Source of the DNA: Trueperella bonasi
Lineage (GTDB): Bacteria > Actinomycetota > Actinomycetes > Actinomycetales > Actinomycetaceae
Direction of reading: 5' to 3'
Assembly (NCBI RefSeq): GCF_030811535.1
Contig: NZ_JAUSQX010000001.1
Coordinates: forward strand, 62,001 to 126,000
Length of the DNA stretch: 64,000 bases
Shown: positions 27,270-39,454 of the stretch, piece after piece
Layout: each line of letters opens with the position of its first letter
Position numbering within the stretch: position 1 is the first letter of the stretch
Made by a program: the position numbers and the translations under genes
Notes under the pieces: model-generated
Database searches by the model: none
Told to the model about the DNA's origin: nothing
Seen by the model: only the letters and a program-made list of their open reading frames with translations

Positions 27270-28427
27270 TTATTTCCACGCGTTACCCGGCCCGTCTTTC
27301 AAGGGATCCGAGCTATTCGCCTCCGGATCCAAGGACGGTTTGGGTTTTTCGTGCGGGCCAATTTCGGCGGCAGCATCCGCTGGCGAATTCAGGGTTGGCC
27401 ATTTCTTGGAGCCCCAAATAGAAACAATCACGGTCATGCCGATCGCACTGAGAATCACCGCGGTCGATTGCAGCGGCGATGGTTCGGGAATAAACAGAAG
27501 CATGTCGTAACCGTGGAAGGCGTGAATAATGAGTTTCAAAGCGATGAAGCCGAGAATGAACGCCAAGCCAAAGTGCAGATAAATCAGGCGGTCCAACAGT
27601 CCATCAACGAGGAAATAGAGCTGACGCAAACCAAGGAGTGAGAACGCGTTGGCGGCAAAGACGATAAACGGTTCTTGGGTCAGGCCGTAAATCGCGGGAA
27701 TCGAATCGAGCGCGAACATGATGTCGATTGAGCCGATCGAGATGACGCAGAGCATGAGCGGCGTGATCCAGGTCTTGCCACCACGCCGAACCACGAGGCG
27801 TTGCCCGACATAACCGTCGGTCACCCTGAAGATACGCGAGACGAAGCGAGTAAGCGCATTCGGTTCATATTCGCTTGAGGGATCTAGAGCATGAGGGTTG
27901 CGCCGGTCCTTTTCTTGCTCGATACCATCCTTGATCTGGTCGATTGCGGTATACAGCATCCAAGCGCCGAAGATAAAGAATACCCAAGCGAACTGTTCGA
28001 TAATCGCTGCGGCTAGCATGATGAATGCAAAACGTAGCACGAGGGCGATGACGATACCCCACATGACAACCTTCTGCTGATAGATTCTGGGAACCCTGAA
28101 GGCGGCGATAATAATGATGAAAACGAATATATTGTCAAGAGACAGTGACTTTTCAGTCAGATAGCCAGCAAAATATTCCGTTGCAAACTCCGGGCTATGC
28201 CGGAAATACATCAGGACGCCAAATAGTAGGGCAATCACGATGTAGAAAGTGGACCAAATGGCAGCTTCTTTAAGGGTCGGCTCGTGTGGCTTGCGCACGT
28301 GCCCAAGGAGATCCCAAGCAATTAATACGATGATGATGGCGAATAGCGCGAACCATTCCCAGGTGTGCACTTCCATCGCTTCCGCAGAGTTGCGAGCGGT
28401 GAGCAACGCGGTTTGAAACGTGGACAT
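27270..28427 (-). CDS. TerC-family membrane protein, probable manganese exporter
   Basis: TerC proteins are integral membrane proteins that protect from metal stress, and several export Mn(II) during protein secretion (family knowledge). The 385 residues show seven or more hydrophobic helices, the EKSLSLDNIFVF segment and a SIDIMFALDSIPAIYG segment, whose acidic residues are conserved in TerC. A polar tail of about 50 residues follows. ATG at 28427 is preceded by AAGGA (28434-28438) with a six-base spacer. The gene lies directly under a yybP-ykoY-type manganese riboswitch, which strongly supports a manganese role. Confidence 0.93.
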   Translation of the reverse strand: MSTFQTALLTARNSAEAMEVHTWEWFALFAIIIVLIAWDLLGHVRKPHEPTLKEAAIWSTFYIVIALLFGVLMYFRHSPEFATEYFAGYLTEKSLSLDNIFVFIIIIAAFRVPRIYQQKVVMWGIVIALVLRFAFIMLAAAIIEQFAWVFFIFGAWMLYTAIDQIKDGIEQEKDRRNPHALDPSSEYEPNALTRFVSRIFRVTDGYVGQRLVVRRGGKTWITPLMLCVISIGSIDIMFALDSIPAIYGLTQEPFIVFAANAFSLLGLRQLYFLVDGLLDRLIYLHFGLAFILGFIALKLIIHAFHGYDMLLFIPEPSPLQSTAVILSAIGMTVIVSIWGSKKWPTLNSPADAAAEIGPHEKPKPSLDPEANSSDPLKDGPGNAWK

Positions 28428-28438
28428 GGAGTATCCTT

Positions 28439-28463
28439 CCGGTACGTCAAGTTGTAGTACCGG
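28439..28463 (-). promoter_or_regulatory. Hairpin next to terC ribosome-binding site (candidate expression platform)
   Basis: A perfect 7-bp stem, CCGGTAC with GTACCGG, and an 11-base loop abut the AAGGA ribosome-binding site. Its upstream arm shares bases 28462-28463 with the closing helix of the riboswitch, so the two may compete. Confidence 0.6.
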
Positions 28464-28553
28464 AGGTCTCTTCCCGCCTTGTTTTACTCAAGGCCTCGAC
28501 CCGGGCAAACGCCGTATTGACGAGTCGATGTTGGGTGGGAATACTCCCCTCCG
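28461..28553 (-). ncRNA. yybP-ykoY-type Mn2+ riboswitch upstream of terC
   Basis: On the minus strand the leader shows the conserved GGGGAGTA box at 28542-28549, the CGTCAATACGGC segment, the GCCCGGGTC segment, a local stem-loop CCTTG/CAAGG, and the closing GAAGAGACC box. Helix P1 forms between GGAGG (28548-28552) and CCTCC (28462-28466). These elements and their order match the yybP-ykoY family, which senses Mn(II) and often precedes terC, mntP or similar exporters. The class is recognised by eye, not by covariance search. Confidence 0.85.
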
Positions 28554-28562
28554 TCTGATTCG

Positions 28563-28590
28563 ATGATAGCCCACGGCGCCGCGTTCGTAA
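28563..28590 (-). promoter_or_regulatory. Candidate terC promoter
   Basis: TATCAT (28563-28568) with TTACGA (28585-28590) 16 bases upstream. Transcription would begin near 28556, only a few bases before the riboswitch closing helix, which is a good fit for a dedicated terC promoter downstream of uvrB. Confidence 0.5.
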
Positions 28591-28616: not shown

Positions 28617-30665
28617 TCACACGCTATCGATCTGGCGCAGTTCTTTCTTGACATCCTCAATTTCGTCTCGAAGGCGCGCGGCGAGCTCAAACTGAAGCTG
28701 TTCGGCAGCCGCGTGCATCTGTTCGGTAAGGTCTTCGAGAAGTTGGCGGATTTCTCGGCCGTCTTGCGGCAGACGCTCGCTCATCGACGTTTCTTTTCGA
28801 TAGCCGCCATCGAGCAACTGTTGGGTGTCAACATCCTCGCGCGCGAGCATGTCAGTGACGTCGGAGATTTTCTTGCGCAGCGGCGTCGGGTCAATTCCGT
28901 GCTTGCGATTATAGGCAAGCTGTTTATCACGACGGCGGTTGGTTTCGTCGATCGCTTCCTTCATGTTGGCCGTGATTTCATCGGCATACATGTGTACCTG
29001 GCCCGAAACGTTACGCGCCGCACGGCCAATCGTCTGAATGAGGGATGTTGTTGATCGAAGGAAACCTTGCTTATCCGCGTCGAGAATGGAAACTAACGAC
29101 ACTTCGGGAAGGTCGAGACCCTCGCGCAAAAGGTTAATTCCAACGAGGACGTCAAACTTGCCGAGGCGTAATTCGCGTAGAAGTTCCACGCGGCGCAGGG
29201 TGTCGACGTCAGAATGTAGATATTCCACTCTGACCCCTCGTTCGATCATGTAATCGGTCAGATCTTCCGCCATTTTCTTCGTCAATGTGGTGACGAGTAC
29301 ACGCTCGTCACGGTCAGCTCGAATCCGAATTTCCTCCAGCAGGTCATCAATCTGCCCTTTCGTTGGCTTGACGATGATCTCCGGATCAACCAACCCCGTG
29401 GGGCGAATGATCTGCTCGACAACCCCATCAGATTTCTCGAGCTCATATTTGCCCGGTGTTGCCGAAAGATAAACCGTTTGCCCAATTCGTTCGAGGAATT
29501 CTTCCCATTTCAAAGGCCGATTATCCATAGCCGACGGCAAGCGAAAACCGTATTCGACCAACGTGCGTTTTCGAGACATATCGCCCTCATACATAGCACC
29601 GATCTGCGGGACCGTCACATGCGATTCGTCGATGACCAGCACGAAATCTTCCGGAAAATAATCAAGAAGCGTATGGGGTGGCGTTCCCGGCCCTCGACCA
29701 TCAATGTGGCGCGAGTAGTTCTCGATCCCCGAACATGTGCCAAGATTACGCATCATTTCTACATCGAAAGTAGTCCGCATTTCTAGGCGCTGGGCTTCAA
29801 GCAGCTTGCCTTGCTCTCGAAATTCCTCAAGGCGAATCTCGAGTTCCTGCTTGATGGATCCCATCGCGCGCTCCATGCGCTCCGGGCCTGCTACGTAATG
29901 CGATGCTGGAAAAATATGGGCGTGATCCGATTCACGAATCACGTTTCCCGTGAGCGGATGCAGTAGAGATATCGCGTCAATCTCGTCACCAAAAAACTCG
30001 ATCCTTACCGCCAATTCTTCGTATACCGGAATAATTTCGACGGTATCGCCACGCACGCGGAATGTCCCCCGAGTGAAGGCCATGTCATTACGCGTGTACT
30101 GCATTGAAACAAATTGCTTCAAAAGCGCGTCTCGATCGAGTTCTTGCCCAACCTCTAGCTGTACCATTCGGTCGACGTATTCTTGCGGAGTTCCAAGGCC
30201 GTAAATGCACGAAACTGAGGCGACCACGACGACGTCGCGCCTGGTTAACAAAGAGTTCGTGGCGGAATGGCGAAGGCGTTCAACCTCGTCGTTAATTGAG
30301 GAATCCTTTTCGATATACGTATCCGATTGCGGAACATAAGCTTCGGGCTGGTAGTAGTCGTAATAGGAAACGAAGTACTCAACCGCATTATTCGGCAACA
30401 GTTCCCGAAATTCGGCGGCCAGCTGCGCGGCGAGCGTCTTATTCGGAGCCATCACCAAGGTTGGCCGCTGAATCTGCTCGATGAGCCACGCCGTCGTCGC
30501 CGATTTGCCCGTACCGGTAGCTCCGAGCAAAACGACGTCGCTTTCACCGTTGTTAATTCGCTCGGCGAGCTCCTTAATCGCTTGAGGCTGATCACCGGAA
30601 GGCGTGTATTCGGAAATAACCTCAAAGGGCGCTTCGGCGCGGACAATATCGCTGACTGGTCGCAT
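28617..30665 (-). CDS. uvrB: Excinuclease ABC subunit B
   Basis: Helicase-like subunit that verifies damage and loads UvrC. The 682 residues carry the P-loop GATGTGKS at 48-55, the beta-hairpin region with [20 protein letters not shown] as motif II, and helicase motifs including [11 protein letters not shown]-terminal UVR motif (about 640-675) contacts UvrC. The ATG at 30665 has no clear ribosome-binding site but a TAGCCT hexamer six bases upstream. It follows coaE by 37 bases in the usual actinobacterial coaE-uvrB order, although it may also have its own promoter. Confidence 0.97.
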
Positions 30666-39372: not shown

Positions 39373-39454
39373 TGCTCCGGGCGGGACTCGAACCCGCATG
39401 CCTTTCAGCGCTGCATTTTGAGTGCAGTGTGTCTGCCAATTCCACCACCGGAGC
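39373..39454 (-). tRNA. tRNA-Leu (anticodon CAA)
   Basis: The 82-base minus-strand gene folds with acceptor arms GCTCCGG and CCGGAGC, a D-arm TGGTGGAATTGGCAGACAC region, anticodon stem CTGCA/TGCAG with loop CTCAAAA, a long class II variable arm, and T-loop GGTTCGAGTCC. The anticodon CAA and long variable arm give leucine. The 3' CCA is not fully encoded. It stands alone between pyk and the ANTAR regulator gene. Confidence 0.95.

Follow-up and report, generated by a model that had tools for sequence, protein, structure and literature searches.

The terC gene of Trueperella bonasi lies on the minus strand of the 64,000-nucleotide stretch analysed here (the window), behind a gap of 189 bases that begins where an upstream ORF, which we take to be uvrB, stops on the same strand at 28617. 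The question raised by this locus is whether the leader in that gap (28553-28428, minus strand) is a manganese riboswitch of the yybP-ykoY class and, if so, how it might act on the gene. The answer reached by comparison with related leaders is that the 5' end of the terC mRNA very probably carries a P2-less Mn2+ riboswitch that controls translation by strand exchange between helix P1 and the Shine-Dalgarno site. The elements of this arrangement are collected in Table 1.

Table 1. Elements of the terC locus in order of transcription; positions are those of the window.
Feature	Position	Strand	Evidence
-10 box candidate TATCAT, 9 nt upstream of P1	28563-28568	-	sequence
P1 (P1.1) 5' strand CGGAGG	28548-28553	-	97.0% of cells paired in 28 leaders; covariation 0.311 vs 0.143 shuffled
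L1 5' side GGAGUA	28542-28547	-	GGGAGTA in 124/124 leaders
P1.2 5' strand UUCCC	28537-28541	-	comparative alignment, 28 leaders
Short junction ACCCAACA, at the P2 place of canonical members	28529-28536	-	RNAalifold consensus without hairpin
P3.1 5' strand	28521-28528	-	4/8 pairs changed on both sides
L3 UCAAUAC	28514-28520	-	xCA in 124/124 leaders
P3.2 hairpin	28504-28513	-	3/4 pairs changed on both sides
P3.1 3' strand	28496-28503	-	comparative alignment, 28 leaders
P4 hairpin	28476-28494	-	3/5 pairs changed on both sides
P1.2 3' strand GGGAA	28471-28475	-	comparative alignment, 28 leaders
L1 3' side GAGA	28467-28470	-	conserved block preceding P1 3' strand
P1 3' strand CCUCCG, doubling as anti-Shine-Dalgarno strand	28461-28466	-	partners 28548-28553 or Shine-Dalgarno arm
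Switch hairpin CCGGUAC / GUACCGG, loop 28456-28446	28439-28463	-	in MFE structure of leader
Shine-Dalgarno AAGGA	28434-28438	-	constrained folds: 28437-28435 pair with 28464-28466 when closed
terC ORF, 385 aa, ATG start	27270-28427	-	Pfam PF03741, 168.8 bits (cut-off 27.8)

The original prediction had looked to the Rfam model RF00080 to recognise the leader, and taken literally this did not happen. With Rfam release 15, RF00080 gave no match at gathering in the window and none at E 10 over 401 bases, and in a search of the genome its best place (9.4 bits) was not the terC leader but elsewhere. The sole Rfam match at gathering within the window was a tRNA at 39373-39454 (-), with 57.5 bits. The missing match does not refute a riboswitch, nor does the RF00080 threshold define the class, because the E. 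coli mntP riboswitch (L172 962-1058) scores 41.6 bits and so also falls under the gathering score of 45. The model is drawn with a P2 hairpin and its printed consensus is without P1 pairs, and the latter probably accounts for its failure to find the short form of Actinobacteria.

Membership of the class is instead indicated by homology. A covariance model (R1), built from the alignment of 28 terC leaders of the family described below, was run unfiltered over 20,294 bases for the E. coli loci, where the leader of alx came top of its locus (21.5 bits, E 0.0013, the match ending 81 bases before alx), as did that of mntP (16.7 bits, E 0.023). E. coli alx, annotated as the Mn2+ exporter Alx, is a TerC-family gene too. 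Both E. coli leaders, which have the same loops as the terC leader, are reported to be Mn2+ riboswitches (PMC9603457). The yybP-ykoY boxes were found in the predicted order in the terC leader, and GGGAGTA and xCA recur in all 124 leaders of a wider sample. Both metal-site loops are intact, with the L1 blocks GGGAGUA ... GAGACC at 28548-28542 and 28470-28465, and A28518 in UCAAUAC of L3 aligns with the adenosine reported to contact Mn2+ in crystal structures, A41 in L. lactis (UCAAUUC) and A48 in X. oryzae (PMC6754395). The leader therefore has in common with the class its L1 blocks, the L3 adenosine, helices P1.1, P1.2, P3.1, P3.2 and P4, R1 homology to proven members and a downstream Mn2+-homeostasis gene (TerC), and lacks, of RF00080 as drawn, the gathering score and the P2 hairpin with its four-way junction. 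As a three-way form has been accepted elsewhere, the leader is filed as a variant of the riboswitch class and not as an RF00080 match; judged by sequence and predicted fold, it is a compact, P2-less Mn2+ (yybP-ykoY) riboswitch, with Mn2+ assigned as ligand from homology.

The fold was derived from relatives gathered without reference to RNA, by a TerC search of 200 genomes of the family (Actinomycetaceae in all counts, the class being Actinomycetes), 194 of which had a match. All 30 of the TerC-chosen leaders that were read out (L002-L031) carry GGGGAGTA. Leaving out L023, which is near-identical, and L030, which has long inserts, the remaining 28 were aligned, and the L3 and GAGAC boxes proved near-invariant across them. 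In the fold comprising P1.1, P1.2, P3.1, P3.2 and P4, 93.0% of cells are paired, 13 pairs are double-changed (8.8 in shuffled alignments), and covariation scores 0.330, compared with 0.157 shuffled, with slid partners reaching at most 0.132; a measure of further pair types was weak, being reached by 53 of 500 shuffles. The 5' strand of P1.2 shows little covariation because it is nearly invariant. RNAalifold, to which the structure was not supplied, returned the same fold minus two end pairs. A P1 helix predicted at 28548-28552 with 28462-28466 was thus placed correctly to within one base pair, but it has six pairs (28553-28548 with 28466-28461) and not five. The wider sample of 124 leaders (75 family and 49 class loci) is non-random, since 60 of them were hand-picked from match lists for spread, and counts over 102 leaders exclude the 22 without a following TerC match below 1e-20.

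In the terC leader the stretch from P1.2 to P3 consists of eight bases without a hairpin, and the RNAalifold consensus of the 28 leaders has no hairpin at the P2 place. The distance from GGGAGTA to the sensing adenosine is 20-24 nt in 124/124 leaders. Both R1 and a DNA-pattern scan described below favour P2-less forms, and since R1 was built from P2-less leaders, the absence of P2 is an unbiased result for the 30 TerC-chosen leaders only. One leader, L101, seems to have a longer junction. A P2-less three-way form is uncommon, though not without precedent: the S. pneumoniae mgtA riboswitch, likened here by its description only, is reported to have a three-way junction as well (PMC9495176), although it controls a Mn2+/Ca2+ ATPase, which the terC leader does not. 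In E. coli mntP, in contrast, the RF00080 alignment shows a hairpin where P2 belongs, and L. lactis yoaB and X. oryzae yebN, whose metal-site loops are the same as those of the terC leader, differ from it in being described as transcriptional switches with a four-way junction (PMC6754395).

How such an aptamer might reach the ribosome-binding site is suggested by the hairpin that follows it. A perfect hairpin had been predicted at 28439-28463, and exactly this was found, with 7 bp (28463-28457 with 28445-28439). It was said to share two bases with P1, but counting the six-pair P1 there are three. Beyond a bulged A, the hairpin can be extended by three pairs (28466-28464 with 28437-28435), and the extended form then occupies all of the P1 3' strand as well as the AGG within AAGGA. 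The idea that a hairpin at the ribosome site competes with P1 thus holds, but was understated, as the competition involves all six P1 3' bases and the Shine-Dalgarno site itself is covered. Since the Shine-Dalgarno region is a possible partner for the entire CCUCCG strand, P1 cannot form while the ribosome site is closed, and vice versa. In the window, the P1 3' strand and the next four bases pair with the Shine-Dalgarno region at -16.0 kcal/mol (p 0.005, 200 shuffles), CCGGUAC with GUACCGG and then, past the bulged A, CCU with AGG. The Shine-Dalgarno arm (CGGAAGG) mimics the P1 5' strand (CGGAGG), so that both would compete for one strand. Another possible pairing, of GGAGUAU (28547-28541) with AUACUCC (28434-28428), spans 7 bp and is taken as chance because it is not kept in the nearest leaders, L003 and L004.

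The competing pairing is widespread. It was scored where at least three P1 bases were paired, the arm carried AGG, GGA or GAG, and a start codon followed soon after, and by this rule it is present in 87 of 102 TerC leaders, whereas 200 letter shuffles give 31.8 on average and 45 at most. Tested singly by shuffling, 66 of the 102 reach p 0.05 and 41 reach p 0.01, while 36 miss p 0.05; repetition with other random seeds gave 68 instead of 66 at p <=0.05. Among 54 sequence-thinned leaders, 43 pass the rule and 30 reach p 0.05. The pairing also occurs in 59 of the 80 leaders of the independent pattern set (shuffled 30.29, largest 41) and in 55 of the 72 that are TerC-led, among the matches listed. 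The purine-rich Shine-Dalgarno site is by default a partner for strands rich in C and U; ranked against non-cognate P1 strands, the leaders have a median rank of 0.029, with 0.256 for CCUUCG leaders and worse values for several rarer types. The prediction of a translational ON switch that works by competition between P1 and the hairpin is therefore backed by comparative evidence.

It may be asked whether the aptamer is real while the hairpin is merely a stable stem of the 5' UTR, overlapping P1 incidentally, with regulation achieved in some other way. The 15 of 102 TerC leaders that fail the pairing rule would be in keeping with this, as would the modest covariation of the hairpin when the 28 leaders are aligned by MAFFT: 78.4% paired against 73.5% shuffled, a score of 0.218 against 0.169 (11/500; slid versions at most 0.062), and 2 double-changed pairs against 3.0. 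That column test penalises the hairpin, because its Shine-Dalgarno arms occur in two registers, CCGGAGG and CCGGAAGG. Such an incidental stem is improbable, given that in two sets of leaders the competing pairing greatly exceeds its shuffled controls and that the Shine-Dalgarno arm covaries with P1. At P1 position 4, the P1 3' base and both of its partners change together (G-C-G 68, A-U-A 14 and A-U-G 12 of 102), and at position 5 the trios are G-C-G in 74 and C-G-C in 8 of 102, while at position 6 ten of 102 no longer have the P1 pair (A or G facing G) yet retain that with the Shine-Dalgarno arm; the arms for these counts were picked as the best duplex, which biases them towards pairing, and shuffles were picked likewise. 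A switch acting by transcription attenuation, after the manner of the L. lactis and X. oryzae relatives, can be given very little weight: transcriptional platforms are indeed known in the class (PMC6754395), but the window scan found terminator-like sites on the plus strand only and none on the minus strand of the leader, where the hairpin is followed by AAGGA and a start codon with no U-tract. The same strand exchange could also answer mainly to another divalent ion or to pH, as the related alx responds to alkaline pH (PMC3874183) and a streptococcal relative is said to bind Ca2+ too (PMC9495176). This is unlikely when the Mn2+-contacting adenosine is present in 124/124 leaders and the downstream genes are TerC and GDT1, and by analogy with the proven members Mn2+ would be the ligand.

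Exchange of the P1 strand under the control of Mn2+ would then proceed as follows. Without Mn2+, CCUCCG and the adjoining GUAC would pair with GUACCGG-A-AGG and close the Shine-Dalgarno site. Docking of L1 and L3 by Mn2+, together with Mg2+, would stabilise P1 and hold the CCUCCG strand, whereupon the hairpin would lose its foot and terC could be translated. The aptamer, its loops, P1, the competing pairing and the gene context are all evident at the level of sequence and predicted structure. The direction of switching, with Mn2+ turning translation ON, is suggested by homology and by calculated energies: for RNA 28555-28425 the MFE structure has the hairpin closed, at -49.9 kcal/mol, compared with -43.6 kcal/mol when P1 and P1.2 are enforced. 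The closed state is thus favoured without ligand, and Mn2+ should open the Shine-Dalgarno site. As the closed state is ahead by about 6 kcal/mol when tertiary contacts are left out, metal binding or the order of folding must favour P1, and since P1 is completed before the 3' arm of the hairpin is made, co-transcriptional capture of P1 by Mn2+ is plausible.

A promoter had been proposed just upstream of the aptamer. The sequence TATCAT fits, and TANNNT occurs 3-13 nt upstream of P1 in 97 of 123 leaders, far more often than in shuffled sequences (mean 13.75, largest 26) or at a shifted distance (8), although a stricter simple sigma-70 scan of the window listed no minus-strand promoter for the terC leader. 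The placement of TANNNT across leaders implies that the terC transcript probably starts within a few bases of P1.

Comparison with the systems already studied shows which parts of this arrangement are familiar. The E. coli alx and mntP riboswitches are translational ON switches, as is proposed for the terC leader. The published model for alx differs in describing a larger rearrangement steered by polymerase pausing, and the available text of that report does not describe a single exchange between a P1 strand and the Shine-Dalgarno site (PMC3874183). In L. lactis yoaB and X. oryzae yebN, P1.1 is reported as the switching helix, and its stabilisation by Mn2+ is reported to have been shown for the X. 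oryzae relative (PMC6754395). Among Actinobacteria, yybP-ykoY leaders have been predicted in Corynebacterium, including that of C. glutamicum terC (cg2157), which rests on an older Rfam prediction of 49.13 bits and a 5' UTR from RNA-seq; the accessible part of that source describes neither mechanism nor junction (PMC3890552). The literature searched on the yybP-ykoY class in Actinobacteria, as far as its available text extends, describes no actinobacterial strand-exchange platform. Mn2+ riboswitches before terC in Actinobacteria are thus already in print, and what is new is the strand-exchange platform, in which the P1 strand is used twice, together with a P2-less form that escapes the Rfam model, and the breadth of that form. 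That the terC leader in the window is an instance of a known mechanism is well supported, and the mechanism given in the original prediction is essentially right.

At E 0.01, R1 has matches in 177 of the 200 genomes from the family and in 155 of the 296 from the class. RF00080 exceeds its cut-off nowhere in either set (0/200 and 0/296), and below cut-off it finds 13 of the 200 family genomes at E 1 and 11 of the 296 class genomes at E 0.01. A scan of named genomes with a DNA pattern, blind to proteins, gave 80 readable loci from 119 stretches among the matches listed; all 80 are actinobacterial, judged by their titles, and 72 directly precede TerC, again among the matches listed. TerC is downstream in 102 of the 124 leaders, and many of the other 22 precede proteins with an ELGDK motif, one of which was identified as GDT1/UPF0016 (147.5 bits). 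TerC and UPF0016 proteins have both been linked to manganese (PMC13274385). In L157, L161 and L085, copies of the aptamer stand before non-TerC ORFs with uncertain start calls; two of these ORFs have no match in Pfam, and the third has a C-terminal GreA/GreB domain.

On balance, these data incline towards the view that Actinomycetes have a distinct P2-less subtype, largely missed by Rfam 15, with a usual strand-exchange decoy in which the Shine-Dalgarno arm would be a copy of the P1 5' strand, a mirror version in some Micrococcales using CCCCUUGG, and a longer, two-step form before GDT1. If this is true, a manganese sensor before terC and GDT1 could be read across a bacterial class, streptomycetes included, where current RNA annotation is blank. 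One strand with two partners would also be an unusually simple switch, allowing P1 strength, metal affinity and translation to be varied independently of one another.

Several leaders depart from the usual platform. In the Micrococcales leaders L177, L186, L191 and L202, the P1 5' strand has a partner in CCCCUUGG, beside the Shine-Dalgarno site (p <=0.03), and L217, L222 and L226 have similar strands, CCCUUUGG. Pairing of this mirror type reaches p 0.05 in 0 of the 102 leaders and in 6 of the 80 leaders of the pattern set, among the matches listed. The GDT1-type leaders (L073, L074, L079-L081, L084, L087-L089, L091, L097) have a different platform, in which a strand resembling GGGUCGAAGUCUCGC is able to open the 3' side of both L1 and P1, with a second hairpin, CUUUCCGAUC / GAUCGGAAGGG, lying over the Shine-Dalgarno site; from its sequence this looks like a two-step switch. 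In L083 and L156, from small actinobacterial genomes, the P1 5' strand, UUAAGGGG, has its complement in a CCCCUUUAACG strand ahead of terC.
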